Below are positions 3,008 to 13,333 of a stretch of 13,333 nt of DNA, piece by piece. The DNA is from Pseudomonadota bacterium (lineage in GTDB: Bacteria; Desulfobacterota; Syntrophobacteria; Syntrophobacterales; Syntrophobacteraceae): assembly GCA_023416335.1 (NCBI GenBank), contig JAEZHY010000024.1, forward strand, positions 1 through 13,333. The letters run 5' to 3'. The notes below the pieces were generated by a model. It was given only the letters and a program-made list of their open reading frames with translations, did not search any database and was not told the DNA's origin. The position numbers and the translations under genes are program-made. Every line of letters begins with the position of its first letter. Positions within the stretch are counted from its first letter, which is position 1.

Positions 3008-5437
3008 ATGGTTGGCAGCATTCCGAATACTTATGATGAAAGGATTCGAACTTACCAGATGGATAAAGCGGTTTTTGCTTGTCGCCTGAAGTATATCCAA
3101 AAGCTGTATGAAAACGCATGCGACACACTAGTGCATGTTTTCGGCTCTGCGGAAGCTAATCAACGCGCCTTCTTTATTCGGTTTGCATTGGTTGCCTACG
3201 TATCTTTGTTGGTTTATCCGATAAGGATACATAGAATCATTGCAGGCCTGGATCCCTCCTGGATCCTGGCCCTCAACTACCTGAGAGGGACGCATTATCG
3301 TTTCGGGTCCGATGTTGTTTGGACGTACGGACCTCTCGGTTTCTTGGCCATGCCCCTAAATATCGGGAACAATCTTCCCGTTTCCCTGATTGTTCAATTC
3401 TGCACCTGGGCATTGACCATACTGACACTTTCACTGCTCATATACAGAAAAAAAATTTCGGTTCATCAGCTGTTTACATTCGCAATCTGCATCTGCTTCT
3501 GCAGGTTTTCTTTCGATTATTCCCTGTGCTGCCTCATACTGATTCTGATCGCAATCACCATTGTTTTCGAATCGCTCTCGGCATTTGTTTTGTCCCTGGT
3601 GATAACCATAGTGCTCACAATGGTCAAATTCAGTGCAGCAATATTCGGACTCTCCGCCATAGTGGCATGCATTGCAGTACAACTCTTCAGGAACAGACGC
3701 TTTGCGGTTGTACAAACAGTTCTTGCTTCCGTCGGAATCCCGGGGGGCTTTCTCCTTTTATATTACCTTTACAATCCTTTATTTCTGCCCGATGTCGTTC
3801 TTTATCTGAAAGGCGCGTTTGAGATTTCGTCCGGTTACAGCGTTGCCATGAGCCTGATCGGAAAACAATACTTCCTGGTGATGGCAGTTTTGGTCTCTTT
3901 TTTGCTCTTCGCCTTGGGCTTTTTTCTCTTCAAAGCTCGGGAAAAATCTTTTTATATTCTGCTCGTTTGTATCCTCCCGCTCTTTTTGACTTTCAAACAT
4001 GGGTTTGTCCGGCAGGACGGTCACATTGTGATCTTCTTTGAAATTGTCCTTTTTATTGTGGGACTGCTTTGTCTCTTCACCAATCTGGATATTGCCGCGG
4101 GCAGAAGACTACCTATTATCATCGGTCCACTGCTCATCATTTATATTTTCATGTACCAGCAACAACTGCATTCAGTGCCTGTCGACCGAGTACTTGCCAT
4201 AGACACAGTCAGGGATATCGAAGCGATCGCAAACAATCCGGAAAGAATTTGGGGTGAAGCCGATTTAACTGAGGATAGACTTCCTCCCCGGATCAGGAAC
4301 GCGGTCGGAAATGACGCGGTAGGGGTGTTCCCGTGGGAAATCACCTATATATATGCAAATAACCTGAACTGGTCCCCTTTCCCGGTTTTACAGGCCTATT
4401 CCGCCTATACGCCCTATCTCGATTTGCTCAACGCAGGCCACCTTAGTTGTCCGAAAGCTCCGCCCTGGCTTCTGTTTGACTTCCTTGCCATAGACGATCG
4501 GCACCCTTTGATAGATGTTCCAGGTACCTGGACGGAGATTTACAGGTGGTATGAAGTCGAGGATCGAACTGATAGACTCCTCCTTTTGAAAAGGAGAGCC
4601 ACTCCAAGGTTTGGAGAAATGGAACCCATTGGAGAGGGTGAATACGGAATTGGGCAGACTATTCCGATTCCGGATTCCAGCCAGCCCGTTGCGGCCAGGA
4701 TCCACTTGAATCTCAGCCCGTTGGGGAAGCTGGAGAAATTTCTCTATAGGATAAACCCCATCCGAGTGGCCCTCTACGACAAGTTTGGGCGGGTTTCGAT
4801 TTACAGAGTTGTGCCGGACACCCTAAGTGAAGGTGCGATATTGAATTTCGTTCCCCGAAATCTGCACGAGGCCGACGGACTGATGAGCAGAGTGGAAACC
4901 GCAAAGTTCGACTCGTTCTCGTTGTTCGGCGAAGGAATAAAATCCTATCGCGACAGGGTATCCATAGAATTCTACCGGATTCCGGGCTTAACGATCCGAG
5001 AGGATCTGCATGAGACCGCATTGATCGAGGCCTTCGGTGGCTTGCCCTCACGCGGAGAACTCGGATCGACCGTCCTGTATTCGATTACCCAGATCAATTT
5101 GGAACGCAAGATCATGGCGAAGAAGAAAGCGGTGGTGCACGATAAAGATCAGTTCATTACGATTTTAGGATGGGCCGTGGACAGTTCGGCGAGAAGCGCT
5201 TCCGGAGGGGTCCAGATACTCATCGACGGGAAGAGCTACCTGGCATTTTGCGGGTTGCCCTCCGAAAGCACCGCAAAGAAGTTCAACGTTCCCGGGTACG
5301 GACATGCCGGATTCAAACTGACCATGCCCATTTCAGCAATCGGACCGGGCCAACATTCCCTGTCGTTGAAAATACTAACGGAGGACAAGAAGGCATGTTA
5401 CCGGCCCGAAGAAAACTTCGTGATCGAAATAAAGTAA
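3008..5437 (+). CDS. multi-pass membrane protein, DPSW/TYGPLGFL family, with C-terminal beta domain
   Basis: Function is not known. Hydrophobic segments cover about 57-75, 126-146, 155-225, 235-262, 286-308, 315-330, 340-360 and 368-384, with a long soluble part after about 385. Motifs that recur, as I recall, in an uncharacterised bacterial family are LDPSW (81-85), FGSDVVWTYGPLGFL (99-113), KFSA (207-210), KHGFVRQDGH (330-339) and QAYSAYTPYLD (462-472). The acidic motif in the first exposed loop and the many helices resemble GT-C glycosyltransferases, but that is inference. The last ~100 residues form a separate beta-rich domain with GWAVD (near 721) and GVQILIDGK, like surface-protein sandwich domains. 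The in-frame stop at 3002 rules out a start upstream of 3008. Ribosome binding is weak: GGAGG lies 17 bases upstream, better placed for an out-of-frame ATG at 2992; M18 (3059) is an alternative. The gene converges on the neighbouring sugar-transfer cassette. Confidence 0.82.
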   Translation: MVGSIPNTYDERIRTYQMDKAVFACRLKYIQKLYENACDTLVHVFGSAEANQRAFFIRFALVAYVSLLVYPIRIHRIIAGLDPSWILALNYLRGTHYRFGSDVVWTYGPLGFLAMPLNIGNNLPVSLIVQFCTWALTILTLSLLIYRKKISVHQLFTFAICICFCRFSFDYSLCCLILILIAITIVFESLSAFVLSLVITIVLTMVKFSAAIFGLSAIVACIAVQLFRNRRFAVVQTVLASVGIPGGFLLLYYLYNPLFLPDVVLYLKGAFEISSGYSVAMSLIGKQYFLVMAVLVSFLLFALGFFLFKAREKSFYILLVCILPLFLTFKHGFVRQDGHIVIFFEIVLFIVGLLCLFTNLDIAAGRRLPIIIGPLLIIYIFMYQQQLHSVPVDRVLAIDTVRDIEAIANNPERIWGEADLTEDRLPPRIRNAVGNDAVGVFPWEITYIYANNLNWSPFPVLQAYSAYTPYLDLLNAGHLSCPKAPPWLLFDFLAIDDRHPLIDVPGTWTEIYRWYEVEDRTDRLLLLKRRATPRFGEMEPIGEGEYGIGQTIPIPDSSQPVAARIHLNLSPLGKLEKFLYRINPIRVALYDKFGRVSIYRVVPDTLSEGAILNFVPRNLHEADGLMSRVETAKFDSFSLFGEGIKSYRDRVSIEFYRIPGLTIREDLHETALIEAFGGLPSRGELGSTVLYSITQINLERKIMAKKKAVVHDKDQFITILGWAVDSSARSASGGVQILIDGKSYLAFCGLPSESTAKKFNVPGYGHAGFKLTMPISAIGPGQHSLSLKILTEDKKACYRPEENFVIEIK

Positions 5438-5630: not shown

Positions 5631-7346
5631 CTAACGACGCATGGAAATACGATCATTACGAATGTAGATCCTTGTATTATCGATATCTCCCACCAAAGTG
5701 TATCTTTCCCGGATGAAGTCATTCAATTCGGGAAAGTTTTCATGCCCATAGAGAGTTCTGTCTTCGAATGCGAAGTTATCCGGGCCCACTGCGTCAATGA
5801 AGGCCGCCGGGAAACTTTGTTTCAGATCAGTGAGGTATCGCAGTTTATAAAGATCCCTCTGGGGATGACTTCTAATCTGCCTTTCCGTATGTGCCTCTCT
5901 GGTCGCCTGGCGCATCCCCGTTTCGACATAATAGCGGCACATCCACCCCCACATTCCCAATGATTCTCCGGGCTCGGCATATTCTCCGATTTTCACGGAA
6001 ACTGCGCTTTTCTTGAACATCTCGCTAACGTTACGAGGCAAGAAATGGTTTTTCAAGAAAAGGCTCGAAATAAAAACAGTCAACACACAAGCGAAAAAGG
6101 CTCGATGATAGACCTTCAGAGGCAAAGCAGCCTTTTGCGGATTTTCCCCTTCCTCCATTGCGCAATACCCGGGAGAAATGAGCAAGGCAACCAATTGACA
6201 AAGCGGGAAAACAAGAAAGAGTAAGTAATGTGGAAAAGGGCGATTAGGGGTCAGCACTGTAGCCAGAGCACAAATATTGAGGAGAATGACCGAAAGCGTA
6301 AGACCCAAATTTTTCCTGTAATAACGATGATTAAAAAACAATCCGAATATGGCCGACGTACCTGATAACAGCACGAAATTTTGCCAGCTCCGCTCGGCTT
6401 TCAAAAATGACATGACTTCACTCAATACCATCACATGACCTGCTGATACATAAAAGATATTATTTAGAAGATAATAAGCAATAAATGTATTGACCAGTTC
6501 AAAGTATTTCAAATAAGTAAGGAATAAAGCCATTACGCCGACAATCGATAAGTTGAATGCCGACACTCTCATTAGCTTCGATTTGAAAATCCTCTTGGAG
6601 TCCATGATCAAAAACATGTTTATTATGAACCAGAAACAAGCTGAAAAGAGAGCAGCCTGCAACTTGGCGAGTGGTATCAGAAAGACCAGTGTCCCTGCAA
6701 CAATGAGGCTGAATCGCCTTTCAGTTAGCTTGCCGTGGTCCATCACGCAAGCTCGTAGAAAGCAATAGTTTAAAAGGGAAATCATCAGAATGGGAATATG
6801 TTCGCTCGAATAGTGCACAAAATCGAAGAAGTCGGTCAAAGCGAAGAAACATGCCGCCGGGAAGACCGCCAGCCTGGCCGTCTTTTCTGAAAAAAGCGAT
6901 CTGTTGCCCAGATAGAGAAGATACAAACAGGCGAATACTGAGAGTATGCCGATCACTCTTCCAGTATGAAAGTTTATGGGCAGATCGAATAACCTGGGAA
7001 GGAGGAGTGGAAGCTGATCGAATGGGCCGTGGGTTGTACCATCGACCGAGCGCCAGAAAACGGGGTCATGAGAGAGAGTTATCGCTCCCGCCAGCATCTG
7101 TGCTTCGTCGGGATTCAATTCTCTATTGAACAGGATTATGGGCATCCGCGAAATTATAAGTGTAATTAACATCGAAAGGAGATACATGGGCCGGTTGAAT
7201 ACTGATTTCCGAAGTCTTTGATCTGATTCGAGAAAATATGGTAAAGTCGATTGAATGAAGAGAAATATGAGTAAGCCTGATCGAACCAAGTAGAAAAGAG
7301 TACAAAGAAGCCAGTACGGCATGGAAAGGTTTAATGGCAATTGCAT
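5631..7346 (-). CDS. GT-C-like membrane glycosyltransferase, third gene of a gtr-type cassette
   Basis: The 571 residues carry many hydrophobic segments from residue 12 onward and a soluble C-terminal stretch of about 115 residues. The first exposed loop holds NPDEAQMLAGA (78-88; D80-E81), in the place where PMT/ArnT-type GT-C enzymes carry their catalytic acidic pair, followed by WRSVDGTTHGPFD (98-110). The predicted role is to take a sugar from a polyprenyl-phosphate carrier on the outer side of the inner membrane and attach it to a glycan or protein; the acceptor cannot be read from sequence. It sits where the serotype-specific gtrX-type gene sits in gtr operons, 7 bases after the GtrA stop. 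GAGG just ahead of the ATG overlaps the upstream stop codon, which suggests coupled translation. A+T content is high compared with norZ or dprE1. Assignment to the GT-C fold is by topology and motif only. Confidence 0.82.
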   Translation of the reverse strand: MQLPLNLSMPYWLLCTLFYLVRSGLLIFLFIQSTLPYFLESDQRLRKSVFNRPMYLLSMLITLIISRMPIILFNRELNPDEAQMLAGAITLSHDPVFWRSVDGTTHGPFDQLPLLLPRLFDLPINFHTGRVIGILSVFACLYLLYLGNRSLFSEKTARLAVFPAACFFALTDFFDFVHYSSEHIPILMISLLNYCFLRACVMDHGKLTERRFSLIVAGTLVFLIPLAKLQAALFSACFWFIINMFLIMDSKRIFKSKLMRVSAFNLSIVGVMALFLTYLKYFELVNTFIAYYLLNNIFYVSAGHVMVLSEVMSFLKAERSWQNFVLLSGTSAIFGLFFNHRYYRKNLGLTLSVILLNICALATVLTPNRPFPHYLLFLVFPLCQLVALLISPGYCAMEEGENPQKAALPLKVYHRAFFACVLTVFISSLFLKNHFLPRNVSEMFKKSAVSVKIGEYAEPGESLGMWGWMCRYYVETGMRQATREAHTERQIRSHPQRDLYKLRYLTDLKQSFPAAFIDAVGPDNFAFEDRTLYGHENFPELNDFIRERYTLVGDIDNTRIYIRNDRISMRR

Positions 7347-7353
7347 AATATCC

Positions 7354-7791
7354 TCATTGCTTAATTCCTCTATTGAAAACCAATCGCATTGCCATGAAGT
7401 TCATCAGCATGGAAATTGCGGTTGCAGCCATCAACGATATCAGCCTGGACATACCGCCGGTTCTGAGTATATAGAATGCCACCATGTTTGCCCCCATTCC
7501 CAAGGAATAACTGGTATACACCATGAGCATAGTCACAATAATGTATTTCAGCTTTTCCTTGAGAGTGGGTCTATCTTCTAACGATCTCAAGAATCCGGCC
7601 CGGAAAACTAAAAGCGAACTGGTGAGAAACGCGCATCCTATGCCCGCCACGCACCCGATGCCTTTTGCGATCAACTCATATTTGGGCTGGGAGACCGGGA
7701 TGCAGGTACCTGTGAGGTAGTAAACTCCCCAATCGGCAAAAGTATTAACGACCCCTAGTGCACAGAAGTAAATAAAGGTTTTCACGGTCAT
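7354..7791 (-). CDS. GtrA-family membrane protein (polyprenyl-phosphate-sugar flippase)
   Basis: The 145-residue protein has four hydrophobic segments (about 7-27, 40-62, 81-104 and 112-138). It ends in MNFMAMRLVF, the typical N-F-x-x-x-R-x-V-F close of GtrA proteins. Members move polyprenyl-phosphate-linked monosaccharides across the inner membrane, or support the enzyme that makes them. The ATG overlaps the stop of the upstream GT2 gene by 4 bases (ATGA), and the stop is followed after 7 bases by the GT-C-like gene, so the three are almost certainly co-transcribed. Only a weak GGTGA precedes the start, as expected for a coupled gene. The family call is firm; the sugar is unknown. Confidence 0.87.
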   Translation of the reverse strand: MTVKTFIYFCALGVVNTFADWGVYYLTGTCIPVSQPKYELIAKGIGCVAGIGCAFLTSSLLVFRAGFLRSLEDRPTLKEKLKYIIVTMLMVYTSYSLGMGANMVAFYILRTGGMSRLISLMAATAISMLMNFMAMRLVFNRGIKQ

Positions 7792-8720
7792 TCACCAACT
7801 ATTTTGTATATCTTCCTTTTGAAGTAGCTTCTTTCCTGATGCGACAAATTCAGCAAGAGCAAACCGATCACGAAGAAGCCAATACAAAGGAGGCACCCAT
7901 TGAAAAGGCTTACTGACAAAATGCTTGTCCAGCCGAGGATTGCTTTTGTGGTGAACAACTTCTCATATAGGACGTAGCAGATTGACAAACTGAATGCCAG
8001 GAACAAGAAAACAAATAACTTTAGGAATGTGAATAATAAATCTTCTGCATATTCTGCAAGAGAGTAGAAGCCATGGTAGGCCAGGCTCTTAAAATTCATT
8101 TTGGATTTTCCATCTATGCGCTCGCGCCTATTCCATGCTATTTCAGATCTACTGCATTTTAATTTAGATAGATGAGCTGCAAAGTGAACAAAGGGTTTGC
8201 TTGTCACCACCGAAAGGCATGAGCCTTTGATCATCGTATAATTGCCGATGTTCATTAGTCGCCCTGTTATGATTAGAAAAATCAGTTTATAGAGTAGATA
8301 GCTAAGCTGAAATAGAATTCCTTCTTTACGTTTCTTACGAGCAACATGGACAATGTCATAGTCAGTTAGATTAAGTAAATCATCAATGGCACGCGGATCG
8401 TCCTCACCGTCCGAATCCAAAATTATAACGTTATCGAAAGGAAGATTTCGAATATGCAAAAGTCCTTGATAGATCGCTGCCTGATGCCCTACGTTGTAAT
8501 CCAACTCCAGCAAAATGATGTGTTTGTCCGGATTGGCTTTTATGTATCCAACCAAGAGTTCGACAGTATTATCCTGGGACTTATCATCAACTATGAATAC
8601 TTCGAACTGGTGACTATCGGTCGGGATTGATGCAAATAGTTCGTCTAAGAATTTGACTATTACGTGGTTCTCGTTATAGCAGGGCATTAGAATCGCTATT
8701 TTCTTGCTCTGGACATGCAT
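7788..8720 (-). CDS. family 2 glycosyltransferase, GtrB/DPM1-like polyprenyl-phosphate sugar transferase
   Basis: This enzyme is predicted to move a sugar from a nucleotide donor to polyprenyl phosphate on the cytoplasmic face of the membrane. From the ATG at 8720 (310 residues) the GT-A domain shows LMPCYNE near the start, VDD (44-46), DSDGEDDP (102-109) in the place of the metal-binding DxD-plus-acidic motif, NIGNYTMI (157-164) and RRERIDGKSK (198-207). Two C-terminal hydrophobic segments (about 230-252 and 264-291) match GtrB/ArnC-type proteins. The motif DSDGEDDP differs from the usual DADLQDPPE, so the sugar may not be glucose. A TTG at 8738 would add six residues but has no ribosome site, whereas the ATG has GGAG 10 bases upstream. 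It heads the A+T-rich three-gene cassette and overlaps the next gene by 4 bases. Confidence 0.87.
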   Translation of the reverse strand: MHVQSKKIAILMPCYNENHVIVKFLDELFASIPTDSHQFEVFIVDDKSQDNTVELLVGYIKANPDKHIILLELDYNVGHQAAIYQGLLHIRNLPFDNVIILDSDGEDDPRAIDDLLNLTDYDIVHVARKKRKEGILFQLSYLLYKLIFLIITGRLMNIGNYTMIKGSCLSVVTSKPFVHFAAHLSKLKCSRSEIAWNRRERIDGKSKMNFKSLAYHGFYSLAEYAEDLLFTFLKLFVFLFLAFSLSICYVLYEKLFTTKAILGWTSILSVSLFNGCLLCIGFFVIGLLLLNLSHQERSYFKRKIYKIVGE

Positions 8721-8730
8721 GGGTCCCGGG

Positions 8731-8734
8731 CTCC
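8731..8734 (-). promoter_or_regulatory. ribosome binding site deciding the GT2 start
   Basis: GGAG on the minus strand lies 10 bases before the ATG at 8720. The longer reading with a TTG start at 8738 would place this site partly inside the coding region and has no Shine-Dalgarno of its own. Confidence 0.5.
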
Positions 8735-9132
8735 ACAAGAGTTTTAAGGGTCAGGCCGAGACGAGGGAGGCGCCGGCCGGGGTGTGGCTGTTAGTATATG
8801 CAAGACTCAAGCCGAAGCCTTAGCACAATCGGCATATGTTGTCCATAGTCGCGGAAACGGGTTCTTAATGCCGGGGAATGCTGGTCGTCTTTCAATTTCT
8901 CACTGCCTCGGCCTAAGAGCCCATCCGTTTGAAAAAGATTTCGGGAAGATGCCTTCTTGCCAATATGATGTAGCCTCCCAACCCTCTCGTATACTCGACA
9001 TGCCGTTCTATATTTTTCGCGGCTTTATGGGCGTTACCGCCGCGGTTTCTCCGGGATAAAGATTCTGATCATCTTTTGCAGGGTATCCCACCGTTTGAGG
9101 CCCTTTCCCATCGGTAACAAAAAAGGTTGTGC
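8735..9132. other. spacer between the two glycosylation modules
   Basis: About 400 bases without an intact gene. It contains the decayed dprE2 end at 8913-9023. The part from 8735 to 8912 should carry the promoter of the GT2-GtrA-GT-C cassette if that cassette is transcribed on its own, but I find no convincing -35/-10 pair; TATACT in the AT-rich patch near 8790-8800 is the only -10-like hexamer noticed. A 25-codon minus-strand frame (9034-9111) and a 91-codon plus-strand frame (8784-9059) lack ribosome sites and recognisable content. No terminator is evident after the gene ending at 9133; CTTTTTTG follows closely but no GC-rich stem precedes it. Confidence 0.4.
8913..9023 (-). pseudogene. 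decayed 3' end of a second dprE2-like gene
   Basis: In one minus-strand frame this stretch encodes AAKNI-ERHVEYT, then YII, then RRHLPEIFFKRMGS and a stop. That parallels the end of the intact DprE2: AAKDI...GRHVVYT, YIM, IRHLPEIVFKRISF and a stop. By eye 17 of the last 30 residues are identical, with a six-codon gap just before RHV. At DNA level 8923-9004 aligns without gaps to 11144-11225 with about 60 of 82 bases equal. The frame is closed by a stop at 9069-9071 and has no upstream start codon, and nothing of the NADH-binding or catalytic part of the reductase is present. It is therefore a remnant rather than a gene. It lies in direct orientation to dprE2, so the two ends bracket the large membrane protein gene between them. 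Confidence 0.68.
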
Positions 9133-11118
9133 TTACTTGTTGTCGGGATTGGCCGGTTTAAACGACGCCGTTCTAAGCCCCACCAGAATGCTTAACATGC
9201 CGATCATGAGGAGGACTGCGCTCAGTTGGCAAACTCTTCTTGTAATAACCCCGCCCGTTGCCATTTCCCTTGGCCAACTGAACGCAAAGCCTGCGCCTTT
9301 ATCATCTGCAGCACGTATGCGAAAACTTCCTTCAGGGGCTCGAACCGTCACCTGCTGCCAGTAACCGTCCTGTTCATCCAAACAAATCGGAATGGCAGGT
9401 CCTTGAGCGGGGATTATCTCCAGCGATGTCCCGGGGCCGCCTCCGGCAATATCAAAGACAAGCCAGGGATAGCGGCTTTCAATAGGTTGACTGAGGTACA
9501 GGGCTCGATCGAATCGTTCTTCCACTCGGGACCCGTACACTATCCGATGTGGCAGCATTATGAAACCTTGGGGAGTAGCGCCGGGAGAGAAGCCTGAGCA
9601 CTCCGATTCCTTGAGTGGAAGCGGGGCGCGAATTCCAGTTGGAAGGATTTCGCGGAGGCTTTGATCGGCCAGGGTTGAAGCCAGAAATTGAGCTGAAATC
9701 CAGGGGATATGCAGAAACGGTTTATTATAAATAAAAGCTGCATCACCCTTCGTGATATATCCGGCCGTATTCACTTCCTCAATCATCATTATCGCATGCC
9801 GCTCCAATACAGGTTTGGGTATCGGAATCTGGAATACGGATAGCCCGCCCAAAAGGAGGAGCAGCAGCGCGGAAAGATTTGCCGCAACACGGTACCGCTT
9901 TTCGTCCGCCAGCCAGTCGCGGGCCAAAATGAGCAGTGCCGAAAAATTCGCAAGCGTCCCCATCGACAGAAGATCACAGTACCTGGATGCCGTGGGTCCC
10001 ACGGCTCCCCGTGAATAGGACATGGCAGCTCCCTGGAGCAATACCCATACTCCCAGGCAAATCAGAAATGCTTCGAAATCGCCGAGTTTGCGTGAGCGAA
10101 TCCGGCGCCACAACAAGATGGACAGGGGAGCCCACATAAGGGGCATAAGAGGCCAGATATTGAAAGGCCATGCCATAGTTTTGCCGAAAGTGACCATGAA
10201 TAAAATAGGAACAGTGACCTTCATAGCGTCGTGGCGAGGAACGTGTGGGACAATTTCAAACCCGATAACGGCAAGAGCCATACACGCGAGAATGGTGGGA
10301 AGATATCTGTTGAGGCAGGTCCTGTCGAGCAGGATCGAAAGTATTAGTACGCAGCCGACCGCAACGGGAGCGATGAAGCCGGATGCCATGGAGAACTGTG
10401 CAAGCAGCGCAGACGCTAATCCCAGGAACCATGGAATAGAAAACGGACTTGCGCGGAGCAGAATGAGAATTGTGAGAAGTGAGAAACCGAGCAGGAAATA
10501 AAACTGAGATTGGAAACCCGCCAGCGTATTCTCCCAACCGAAAGGAATTATCCCGAGAAGGGCGATCGTCACGCAGTAGAACGGCAGGTAATTTTTCCCC
10601 GAAAGGCGCCAGAGCGCCAGGGCCAGACCTGTCAAAACCAGTCCGTGAATCACCGCGTTGACGGCCATCTGGAGCAGCGGGTCCCACTGGCCGTTCAACT
10701 CAAGGAGGTTGCAGGCAAGCAGGCGTGTCAGGAGAATTCGGTGTTCGTTATGCGGAGAGATCAACTGGGCCGGATCGAGCATCCCCGCCAATAGCGGGGG
10801 GTACATGAGACCTTCGGCGGGCCATTGGTCCCAGTAAGGGACATCGGAACCGAAGCCGGCAATCAGGTGCAGCTTGGCCCCTGCGATGCAGAGAAAAAGA
10901 CCCGAAAAAAAAAGAAAAGGCCTAACCTTTCCCCTGGAGGCTGAACCGGCGGAAGCGACGGTGATCGGATTTGCGGCACGCAGAATCAGAAACGTGAGGC
11001 AAAGCAGGGCCAGAGACGCCCAGAGGACCTCTCCGGCTGACCACTTAATCGAAGACTTTTCGCAGCCGGTAAGCAGTGGGCATGCCGCGAACAAACCGAA
11101 TAAGATGCTGTATTTCAC
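9133..11118 (-). CDS. large membrane protein, putative GT-C glycosyltransferase of the DprE locus
   Basis: The likely role is transfer of the lipid-linked sugar made by DprE1/DprE2; this is inferred from place and topology. Counting from the GTG (661 residues), many hydrophobic segments run to about 427. The first large exposed loop holds YWDQWPAE (95-102) and SPHNEHR (121-127). GWENTLAGFQSQFYF (194-208), SYSRG (367-371) and SRYCD (378-382) follow. These recur, as I recall, in an uncharacterised family; an acidic residue in the first loop is a GT-C hallmark. An outer beta-rich part (about 480-615, with the AGFAFSWP motif) is followed by one last helix (about 630-648), broadly like the C-terminal domain of arabinosyltransferases. 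M. tuberculosis AftA (Rv3792) sits at this position after DprE2, but I see no clear sequence match. The GTG has GGAG 6 bases upstream; an ATG at 11130 (665 residues) has none. The GTG start gives a signal-like N-terminus ending LLTGC. Confidence 0.8.
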   Translation of the reverse strand: MKYSILFGLFAACPLLTGCEKSSIKWSAGEVLWASLALLCLTFLILRAANPITVASAGSASRGKVRPFLFFSGLFLCIAGAKLHLIAGFGSDVPYWDQWPAEGLMYPPLLAGMLDPAQLISPHNEHRILLTRLLACNLLELNGQWDPLLQMAVNAVIHGLVLTGLALALWRLSGKNYLPFYCVTIALLGIIPFGWENTLAGFQSQFYFLLGFSLLTILILLRASPFSIPWFLGLASALLAQFSMASGFIAPVAVGCVLILSILLDRTCLNRYLPTILACMALAVIGFEIVPHVPRHDAMKVTVPILFMVTFGKTMAWPFNIWPLMPLMWAPLSILLWRRIRSRKLGDFEAFLICLGVWVLLQGAAMSYSRGAVGPTASRYCDLLSMGTLANFSALLILARDWLADEKRYRVAANLSALLLLLLGGLSVFQIPIPKPVLERHAIMMIEEVNTAGYITKGDAAFIYNKPFLHIPWISAQFLASTLADQSLREILPTGIRAPLPLKESECSGFSPGATPQGFIMLPHRIVYGSRVEERFDRALYLSQPIESRYPWLVFDIAGGGPGTSLEIIPAQGPAIPICLDEQDGYWQQVTVRAPEGSFRIRAADDKGAGFAFSWPREMATGGVITRRVCQLSAVLLMIGMLSILVGLRTASFKPANPDNK

Positions 11119-11124
11119 GCCTCG

Positions 11125-11128
11125 CTCC
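11125..11128 (-). promoter_or_regulatory. ribosome binding site deciding a GTG start
   Basis: GGAG on the minus strand is 6 bases before the GTG at 11118 and overlaps the ATG at 11130. The ATG itself is preceded by CAGCTTTTAAGCG, which contains the dprE2 stop and no Shine-Dalgarno. This favours the GTG. Confidence 0.5.
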
Positions 11129-11133
11129 ATCGC

Positions 11134-11865
11134 TTAAAAGCTGATCCGTTTGAAAACAATTTCAGGCAAATGCCTGATCACGAGCATGATGTAGCGCCAG
11201 AACCATTTCGTATAGACAACGTGCCTTCCACGCTTCCATCCGGAGTAAATGTCTTTTGCCGCTTCTTCCGGCGTGGCGGCCAGTTTGTCGGGAAGGTCCA
11301 TTCCTTCGGTCATGTGCGTTCGGACAAAACCGGGCAGTACCGTCATTACCCGAACTCTCCGGCTGTGCAGCCGCTGTCTCAGGCCGCTGAGGTATTCCGC
11401 CAGCGCCGCTTTGGCCGATCCGTAGAAGTAATTCTTCTTTCTGCCGCGGATCCCGGCCACGGAACTGATGCCGATGATGAATCCGCGCCCTTTGCTTTCG
11501 AAGTCGCGGGCTATGACTTCGAAAATGCTGACGGCTCCCGTGAAGTTCGAATCGATCACGCGGTGCGCCTGGTCGAAATCCGCCTCGCACTCGCGCTGGT
11601 TGCCAAGCAGGCCGAAGGCAAGGATTACGCCGTCTGGCTTTGGGTCTAGGGCGTCATAGAAAGCCTGATGAGAGCCGAAGTTCAGGGCATCGAAGAATAC
11701 GGGTTCTGCCTTGACCTGGTAGCGGATCTGGAGGTCTGTGGCCAGGAGCCGGAGGGCATCGGGGTTCCGGCCTGCCAGATAGCAGTTTGCCCCTTCGTTT
11801 TTCGCGAACATCTTCGCGGTCTCCCTGGCAATGTCCGAAGCTGCGCCTAAGACGAGCAGATACAT
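11134..11865 (-). CDS. dprE2: DprE2-like polyprenylphospho-2-ketoribose reductase (SDR family)
   Basis: In mycobacteria DprE2 uses NADH to reduce the 2-keto intermediate (decaprenylphosphoryl-2-keto-ribose) to decaprenylphosphoryl-D-arabinose, completing a 2-epimerisation with DprE1. This 243-residue protein is a classical-length short-chain dehydrogenase. It has GAASDIA (7-13) in the nucleotide-binding loop, in the DprE2 style rather than the usual GxxxGxG. AGRN (31-34), SNFTG (106-110), GISSVAG (132-138), the catalytic YGSAK (Y148, K152) and PGFVRT (178-183) follow. The C-terminal YTKWFWRYIMLVIRHLPE is hydrophobic and may touch the membrane. The start lies 2 bases after the dprE1 stop with AAGGTTGGA just upstream, so the pair is co-translated. 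Pairing with an adjacent DprE1 makes the call much stronger than an SDR alone would allow. The exact sugar and polyprenyl chain are inferred. Confidence 0.92.
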   Translation of the reverse strand: MYLLVLGAASDIARETAKMFAKNEGANCYLAGRNPDALRLLATDLQIRYQVKAEPVFFDALNFGSHQAFYDALDPKPDGVILAFGLLGNQRECEADFDQAHRVIDSNFTGAVSIFEVIARDFESKGRGFIIGISSVAGIRGRKKNYFYGSAKAALAEYLSGLRQRLHSRRVRVMTVLPGFVRTHMTEGMDLPDKLAATPEEAAKDIYSGWKRGRHVVYTKWFWRYIMLVIRHLPEIVFKRISF

Positions 11866-11867
11866 GA

Positions 11868-13166
11868 CTATAGTTCCAACCTTTTGGACTGGAGTGAGTT
11901 GAATTTGCCGCGAAGCCCGAAACGTTCGCGGACGGCCAGAAATTCCTCGAGCCTCGGATAGCCGGTGCGGAGCATCCGGGGAGACATGCGCACGTCTTTT
12001 GTGAGATAGAGCCGGCCGCCAAAGTCGGAGACGACCGAATCGAGCCGGTCAAGAACGGAAAACAGCCCCCGCTGAATCCGAAAATCGATGGCGAGGGTAT
12101 AGCCTTCCATCGGGAACGAGAGGTAATTTTTGTTCTCGGGTCCGAAGAGCTTCAGCACAACCAGGAACGAACCCAGTCCCGATGCGGCGATCTCGGAGAT
12201 GATTCTCTTCAGGCCGTCCGACCCCGCCTGCTTGGGGATCACCATCTGGTACTGGGTAAACCCCTTTCGGCCGTAGAGCCTGTTCCATTGACCGATTCCA
12301 TCCAGGGGGTAGAAAAAGGGATCGAAGTGGACACGCCTCGAGGTCTCTCGCTTCCGGACACGCCCGTAGTACAGATTGTTGAAAGCGGCTACGCTGTGCC
12401 GGTTCAGGATGAATCCGGGCATATCGAAAGGCAGGGAAAGCCGCCCCGGTGTCCCGGGATCGAGGCTTCCTTCATTGCTGTGCTCGCCGGTCATGAGAAG
12501 GGACCGGCCGAGCTGGTCGCCCTGCGCGAGGCAGTCGAGCCAGGCCACCGAATAGGTGGCGCCGGAAGTTTCCTCGAAAAGGTACAGGGTCTCTTCGAGA
12601 TTTGCCGACCGGATAATTGTCTCGTCTATGCAGGCGCTGCGAACGGGAGCAAGGCGAAAGGCGACGCGAAGGATTATCCCGGTCAGGCCCATGCCGCCGC
12701 AGGTCGCATGGAAAAGCTCGGGATTCTGCTTTCGGCTGCAGATGACGGTTTCCCCCGAGGGTAGCATGAGGTCCAGCGAGAGGACACATTCGCTGAAGCA
12801 ACCAAGCGCATGGTGGTTTTTCCCGTGCACGTCGCTTGCCACGGCACCGCCCAGGGTGACGAACTTGGTCCCCGGAGTGACCGCCGGAAACCATCCGCGA
12901 GGCAGGAAGCATTCGATTATTTCGGCCAGCGTGACGCCGCTTTCGCACCGGACGACCCCGGCGTCCTCATCGAAATGGAGTATCCGATTCAAGCCCGACA
13001 TCAAAACGACGTTATCGCCAAGCGCGCTGTCGCCGTAGCTCCTGCCCAGACCGTGTGCGATGAGGTCCGATTCTCCCGCCAGGCAGGATGTCACCCCCGC
13101 CTCGGAATCCGGACGCGAGGCAGTTGCGTTTATAACGGGGTATCTTCCCCAGCCGTTCAGTCGCAT
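11868..13166 (-). CDS. dprE1: DprE1-like polyprenylphospho-ribose 2-oxidase (FAD)
   Basis: This flavoenzyme is predicted to oxidise the 2-hydroxyl of polyprenylphosphoryl-beta-D-ribose to the ketone, the first half of D-arabinose donor formation. The 432 residues align along most of M. tuberculosis DprE1 (461): RLNGWGR at the start, GRSYGDSA (41-48), TLGGAVASDVHGKNHH (104-119) with the flavin/active-site His and Lys, YSVAWLD (205-211), FTQYQMVIP (303-311), LKLFGP (338-343), GGRLYLTKD (383-391; K390 matches K418) and KRLEL at the end. The residue matching benzothiazinone target C387 is A359 (TLAIDF against NICVDF). Its ATG overlaps the stop region of the preceding GtrA-like gene by 10 bases, with AGGA 6 bases before it. 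The gene is G+C-rich. The call is secure; the substrate is from family knowledge. Confidence 0.95.
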   Translation of the reverse strand: MRLNGWGRYPVINATASRPDSEAGVTSCLAGESDLIAHGLGRSYGDSALGDNVVLMSGLNRILHFDEDAGVVRCESGVTLAEIIECFLPRGWFPAVTPGTKFVTLGGAVASDVHGKNHHALGCFSECVLSLDLMLPSGETVICSRKQNPELFHATCGGMGLTGIILRVAFRLAPVRSACIDETIIRSANLEETLYLFEETSGATYSVAWLDCLAQGDQLGRSLLMTGEHSNEGSLDPGTPGRLSLPFDMPGFILNRHSVAAFNNLYYGRVRKRETSRRVHFDPFFYPLDGIGQWNRLYGRKGFTQYQMVIPKQAGSDGLKRIISEIAASGLGSFLVVLKLFGPENKNYLSFPMEGYTLAIDFRIQRGLFSVLDRLDSVVSDFGGRLYLTKDVRMSPRMLRTGYPRLEEFLAVRERFGLRGKFNSLQSKRLEL

Positions 13167-13333
13167 ACTTTTTCCTGCCTGTTTCCGAACGAAATATATT
13201 TATGCCCGATATAGCTGGTAAAAATAGGGACCGAGATCCCCACGAAATGAGAAATTTCTTTTCTGTACAGTTCGATCCCCATGGCGGGGAAAACCCGATC
13301 TGCCAGCACCAGCGTCACCGCAAGGGTCTGCAG
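13157..13333 (-). CDS. GtrA-like membrane protein, C-terminal part (cut by window edge)
   Basis: The 58 visible residues end in a hydrophobic stretch, HFVGISVPIFTSYIGHKYISF, split here as HFVGISVPIF (29-38) and TSYIGHKYISF (39-49), then a short charged tail and TGA. The S-Y-x-x-x-K-Y-x-x-F close resembles GtrA-family C-termini. It overlaps the dprE1 start by 10 bases, so it belongs to the same operon. In M. tuberculosis the GtrA-like Rv3789 sits directly before dprE1 and has been linked to arabinose-lipid translocation or scaffolding, which supports this reading. No start is visible, so it could be the tail of a longer protein such as a fusion. Confidence is moderate because only two hydrophobic segments can be seen. 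Confidence 0.6.
   Translation of the reverse strand: MQTLAVTLVLADRVFPAMGIELYRKEISHFVGISVPIFTSYIGHKYISFGNRQEKVCD

Follow-up and report, generated by a model that had tools for sequence, protein, structure and literature searches.

Organization of the four-gene locus

We analyzed a stretch of 13,333 nucleotides from a Pseudomonadota bacterium (contig JAEZHY010000024.1; hereafter, the window), focusing on a locus at 9133–13333 that comprises genes predicted to supply a lipid-linked D-arabinofuranose (Araf) donor and a gene for a membrane glycosyltransferase (GT) of the GT-C type. On the minus strand of this region, open reading frames were found, in the order of transcription, for the 3′ end of a GtrA-like protein, a DprE1-like protein, a DprE2-like protein, and a GT-C-like membrane protein. 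The gtrA frame (13157–13333) runs out of the window, with 58 codons inside it; its stop codon ends at 13157 and overlaps by 10 bases with dprE1, whose ATG is at 13166. The gene dprE1 (11868–13166) is followed after 2 bases by dprE2 (11134–11865), and by homology they encode a putative FAD oxidase of polyprenyl-phosphate-ribose with 432 amino acid residues (DprE1/NoeH-like) and a putative short-chain dehydrogenase/reductase with 243 residues (DprE2/NoeO-like), respectively. The last gene (9133–11130), for a putative GT-C-like transferase, has two candidate starts: an ATG at 11130, giving 665 residues and a 3-base gap to dprE2, and a GTG at 11118 with GGAG six bases upstream, giving 661 residues and a 15-base gap. 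Residues are numbered from the ATG. An earlier note on this DNA had described the same gene order on a single strand with tight spacing, and its 15-base gap fits the GTG start.

The 58-codon GtrA fragment scored 15.6 bits against the Pfam model PF04138, below the cut-off of 26.1 bits. By tblastn, it matched a full-length protein of locus L055, which passes PF04138, with 40% identity over 53 residues, and its position is as in 13 DprE1 loci described below. The product is predicted to be a flippase or partner protein for a lipid-linked pentose.

The transferase gene was found to be flanked by a 94-base direct repeat, one copy of which (11132–11225) is the intact 3′ end of dprE2. The other copy (8911–9004; 72% identity) lies within a decayed dprE2 3′ end at 8911–9026, which retains a peptide remnant at 9026–8913. 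The decayed frame gave a local score of 86 against the window DprE2, compared with 49 for the best of 500 base shuffles and at most 61 for a set of 57 other DprE2 stretches that includes duplicates. The decayed end stands between the transferase gene and a low-GC GT2-GtrA-571-residue-protein cassette, which comes next. Because the gene is bracketed by two dprE2 3′ ends, one of them decayed, swapping of the transferase is suggested. In the simplest reading, a dprE2-transferase segment, derived from a close relative or from local duplication, was set upstream of an older dprE2-gtr junction.

The donor cassette and its relatives

Residues 2–432 of the window DprE1 aligned with residues 12–460 of the solved mycobacterial DprE1 (E = 3e-85), in agreement with the nearly end-to-end alignment noted earlier, and the next kind of enzyme in the same comparison was xylitol oxidase (E = 4e-9). 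H132, K134, Q334, Q336, K367, Y415, and K418 of Mycobacterium tuberculosis DprE1, which we take to be important residues of the FAD and substrate sites, were all identical in the window protein. The position of C387, presumably the residue trapped by benzothiazinones, is occupied by alanine. Against the NCBIfam models, the window DprE1 scored 403 bits on NF053785 (DprE1), with the next model at 59 bits, and the window DprE2 scored 183 bits on NF053786 (DprE2) and 316 bits on PRK07102, above the cut-off of 267 bits. The curated equivalog cut-offs of NF053785 (500 bits) and NF053786 (250 bits) were reached by neither protein. NoeH and NoeO of Agrobacterium pusense IRBG74, used as controls, were also under these cut-offs with 401 and 192 bits, respectively, which puts the window pair on a par with its rhizobial counterparts; a Xanthomonas fragment and a Flammeovirgaceae protein scored 356 and 434 bits on NF053785. 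On these scores, the window oxidase is classed as DprE1/NoeH-like and not as an NF053785 equivalog.

Among plasmids, 75 records matched DprE1, and gene order was taken from seven of them. The order UbiA-GtrA-DprE1-DprE2 was observed on plasmids of Salipiger, Ruegeria, Azospirillum, Sinorhizobium, Agrobacterium, and Rhizobium, with an acyltransferase gene between DprE1 and DprE2 in Azospirillum, and a Flammeovirgaceae plasmid had the order UbiA-DprE1-DprE2. The four-gene order was also present in loci of Alphaproteobacteria, Gammaproteobacteria, and Desulfobacterota; in the phylum of genome G095, probably the last of these, 21 of 395 genomes had DprE1 at E ≤ 1e-100, with up to 62% identity. Judged by the nearest relatives of both DprE1 and the GT-C protein, the host of the window is most likely a member of Desulfobacterota. 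UbiA was present in 30 of the 37 stretches fetched around DprE1, which include some near-duplicate loci, and was not found within the fetched stretches of L108, L109, L112, and L153–L156. All 13 stretches with GtrA directly before DprE1 carried UbiA, which was directly upstream in 12; in L104, it lay beyond two more genes and was itself interrupted. Since UbiA accompanies GtrA-DprE1 in all 13, a UbiA-type gene is probably located directly beyond base 13333, next to gtrA. Of the 369 genomes from G047's class, Gammaproteobacteria, 84 matched a Xanthomonas HAD-UbiA protein at E ≤ 1e-25. A scan of viral contigs for UbiA was negative, and one partial match was obtained in phages.

The rhizobial operon noeC-N-H-O-P of A. 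pusense IRBG74 and Sinorhizobium alkalisoli resembles the window locus in having GtrA, DprE1, DprE2, and a further protein encoded on one strand with few-base overlaps; UbiA precedes GtrA there, whereas the window ends inside gtrA. NoeH is about 47% identical to the window DprE1. NoeP (401 residues) occupies the same last-gene slot as the window GT-C but showed no significant sequence relationship to it, and homology between them was rejected, the best profile match (E = 0.017, seen with one of the two NoeP proteins) being below the inclusion threshold. According to PMC5080398, the acceptor in this system is a lipo-chitooligosaccharide, and deletion of noeP in IRBG74 abolishes arabinosylation of the Nod factor. 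There and in PMC2443382, noeC, noeH, and noeO are said to correspond to the donor pathway of mycobacteria, and noeN, an extra gene of the IRBG74 operon, is proposed to encode a phosphatase (PMC5080398). In IRBG74, noeC and noeH are separated by a gene (L115, 5582–6004) that encodes a GtrA family protein (NF037976, 147.6 bits; cut-off, 50). If this gene is noeN, as the operon order suggests, its product would be better suited to a flippase role.

Rv3789–Rv3792, which we take to be the gene numbers of the mycobacterial GtrA-like protein, DprE1, DprE2, and AftA, share the four-gene order and the GT-C fold with the window. In mycobacteria, the UbiA and phosphatase genes are located elsewhere. The description of the locus as mycobacterial in style thus holds for gene order, but its closest architectural relatives are Gram-negative, because UbiA-GtrA-DprE1-DprE2 is common to the rhizobial operon and to the proteobacterial and Desulfobacterota loci. 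Likewise, the proposed D-Araf donor locus in a Gram-negative bacterium is supported by homology and gene order, but it is not exceptional there, as the cassette is recurrent. The roles of Rv3789, DprE1, and DprE2 in mycobacteria are covered in PMC11127046 and PMC7389260. The former (Kelly et al. 2024) describes three-component pentofuranose systems as widespread, with elaborate examples in Xanthomonas, and names DprE1/E2 homologues for Araf-containing glycans. Overall, homology and synteny lend good support to the assignment of the window cassette to Araf donor synthesis. The surprise is limited because the donor pathway is already known in Gram-negatives; the new part is the transferase, namely its family and its bracketed position.

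The GT-C protein and its family

The transferase is composed of a membrane core (approximately residues 62–490), a beta-sandwich (approximately residues 499–625), and a last transmembrane helix. Its structure model was confident. In a Foldseek search of the PDB, the arabinosyltransferase EmbB was the sole match at E < 0.001, and the best structural match of the C-terminal domain was the C-terminal domain of EmbC. Emb chains have 1,034–1,087 residues, compared with 665 in the window protein. No Pfam model matched the window GT-C at E ≤ 10, within HMMER's filters, in which it differs from mycobacterial AftA-type proteins. Pfam presumably includes the Aft and Emb models, and we take its Arabino_trans models to represent the GT53 Emb family; the window GT-C fell outside that family by sequence profile, and no Arabino_trans match was obtained among 31 GT-C family members at E ≤ 0.1. 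The earlier view that the transferase is unlike known arabinosyltransferases therefore stands at the sequence level, where neither Pfam nor the PDB revealed any likeness, but less so for the fold, given the EmbB match.

Within the family, D101, H130, and R383 are invariant, and E106 and Y384 are nearly so. These residues merely resemble D31, E34, H106, R349, and Y350 of the GT136 protein ORF12 as printed in PMC11127046. The GT136 systems of Citrobacter youngae O1/O2 reported in the same source share with the window a lipid-phosphate-pentofuranose donor, a flippase, and a GT-C protein with a C-terminal beta-rich domain, but they use a MATE protein where the window has GtrA. A literature search yielded no paper that we recognized as describing the GT-C family, which is broad and has no known function.

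To relate the family to the donor, 72 GT-C loci were surveyed, and the carrier genomes of 47 of them were searched for DprE1 and UbiA. DprE1, DprE2, and GtrA surrounded the GT-C gene in seven of the 72 loci (five from Xanthomonas and one each from Luteimonas and Devosia), and a HAD-UbiA protein was beside DprE1 in both of the two such loci checked with Pfam, its HAD part being just under the cut-off in L055. DprE1 was detected in 14 of the 47 genomes with E-values no higher than 5e-76 (the following match was at 2e-11), and all 14 also matched the UbiA synthase at E ≤ 1e-8. When 40 of the 84 UbiA-positive gammaproteobacterial genomes were fetched, the family was found in just one, L211 (E = 7e-9), apart from a marginal match in L202. 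In L211, this distant member directly follows UbiA-DprE1-DprE2 and keeps the D-W, HNEHRI, GFQSQF, and RY motifs. The gene after DprE2 in L104 encodes a PMT-type GT. No GT-C family member was detected in viral contigs or plasmids, or at E ≤ 1e-20 in the 395 genomes of G095's phylum, a search that had no positive control and carries little weight; the Emb model PF14896 had no match in three genomes with DprE1.

A proposed arabinofuranosylation pathway and its alternatives

These results suggest that the four genes probably form the downstream portion of an operon that directs D-arabinofuranosylation outside the cytoplasm, in which lipid-linked Araf is made, flipped, and transferred by the GT-C protein. 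A phosphoribosyltransferase of the UbiA type, whose gene is predicted to lie just upstream of base 13333, would produce polyprenyl-phosphate-ribose-5-phosphate, which would then be dephosphorylated. DprE1 would oxidize C2′, and DprE2 would reduce it with inversion to give polyprenyl-phosphate-D-Araf. GtrA would flip this lipid, and on the periplasmic side the GT-C protein would move Araf onto a glycan held by its carbohydrate-binding-like C-terminal domain. We infer that the acceptor is a polysaccharide rather than a pilin; D-Araf polymers on Pseudomonas pilin are attributed to TfpW in PMC11841053. A bolder proposal, which we regard as possible but doubtful, is that the 665-residue protein is the founding member of a family of Emb-like arabinofuranosyltransferases that act in the periplasm of bacteria other than Actinobacteria. 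In this view, modular exchange, of which the bracketing dprE2 3′-end repeats would be the trace, brought members of the broad GT-C family into the place beside dprE2, and a single donor cassette would thereby supply various acceptors.

Several observations weigh against the proposed pathway. Neither DprE1 nor the UbiA synthase was found in 28 of the 47 carrier genomes, so the GT-C family, taken in its entirety, is not specific for Araf. Both were likewise missing from the carriers closest to the window GT-C, G001 (Syntrophobacteraceae) and G006 (Syntrophobacterales), an absence that is weak because both are draft metagenome-assembled genomes. In a tree built by a quick method, which the L007 protein of G006 was too short to enter, the window GT-C grouped with P0002 in a clade of Syntrophobacteraceae rows, away from the DprE1-positive rows. 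The equation of the family with arabinosyltransferases was rejected on the 28 carriers and this tree position. No family member was found in 16 stretches around close DprE1 relatives (best E = 0.18), four of which end at or near a contig end. The EmbB match had a low TM-score of 0.25, and by VIA, OST and PMT were as near to the core as AftB was. For the donor part, the window ends inside gtrA with no UbiA gene within it, and the role of the GtrA homologue Rv3789, as a flippase or as an anchor, is under dispute according to PMC7389260.

Accordingly, donor use seems to change within the family, and the transferase role is less sure than the donor assignment: as the closest searchable relatives lack DprE1, use of the Araf donor by the window GT-C rests on the operon. 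The alternative that survives best, at perhaps one chance in a handful, is that DprE1, DprE2, and GtrA make and flip lipid-linked Araf while the GT-C protein uses another lipid-linked sugar, for example a hexose from the neighboring GT2, the true arabinosyltransferase being encoded elsewhere, such as upstream of 13333. The genomes of the closest relatives and the tree favor it, as do the GT2-GtrA cassette starting about 400 bases downstream and the bracketing by dprE2 repeats, which may mark a late insertion. It is countered by the 3- or 15-base gap to dprE2, the slot shared with NoeP and with the distant member in L211, and EmbB as the best Foldseek match. That the oxidase and reductase use some other sugar, lipid-linked or free, and yield a product other than D-Araf is unlikely; both proteins miss their equivalog cut-offs and several such cassettes come with accessory genes for an epimerase and a FAD enzyme, but NoeH and NoeO, from an operon tied to arabinosylation, score alike, and the next-best model for DprE1 is far weaker. 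It is very improbable that cassette exchange left these genes as a relic that is decaying or not expressed, since, despite the decayed dprE2 end, the genes have open reading frames (for GtrA, over just the 58 codons in the window) with tight spacing, and the checked DprE1 residues are conserved.

If extracytoplasmic arabinofuranosylation is the function of the locus, a large GT-C family without a function would include Gram-negative arabinosyltransferases with Emb-like architecture. These would offer models in harmless organisms for a fold that is a drug target, and they would allow testing how a single lipid-sugar donor becomes coupled to various acceptors; D-arabinose would also be predicted in the envelopes of Desulfobacterota-like bacteria.

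The low-GC region at 5631–8738 encodes a GtrB-like GT2 (phrog_841), GtrA, and the 571-residue membrane protein, matching the gtr cassette of the earlier note, and is probably a second lipid-sugar decoration cassette. A NorB-type nitric oxide reductase, in line with the qNOR of that note, was also present in the window. Homologues of the 571-residue protein occur near GT-C family genes in the Opitutae loci L011, L036, and L043. On the plus strand, 3008–5437 encodes an 809-residue membrane protein with no family match, a homologue of which directly follows GT-C in Ramlibacter (L042); another neighbors UbiA-DprE1-DprE2 in that genome (L111).

An NAD epimerase and an amine-oxidase-like FAD enzyme recurred with the donor cassette, GT-C, or both (L003, L004, L037, L038, L055, L104, L110, L213, L215, L227, and L228), and possibly make a further change to the lipid-linked sugar. 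In L104 (1018–6977), other sequence interrupts both the UbiA gene (about 1.7 kb) and the epimerase gene (about 2.4 kb), and in L086 (G034:C243), the DprE1-like frame contains one in-frame TGA.

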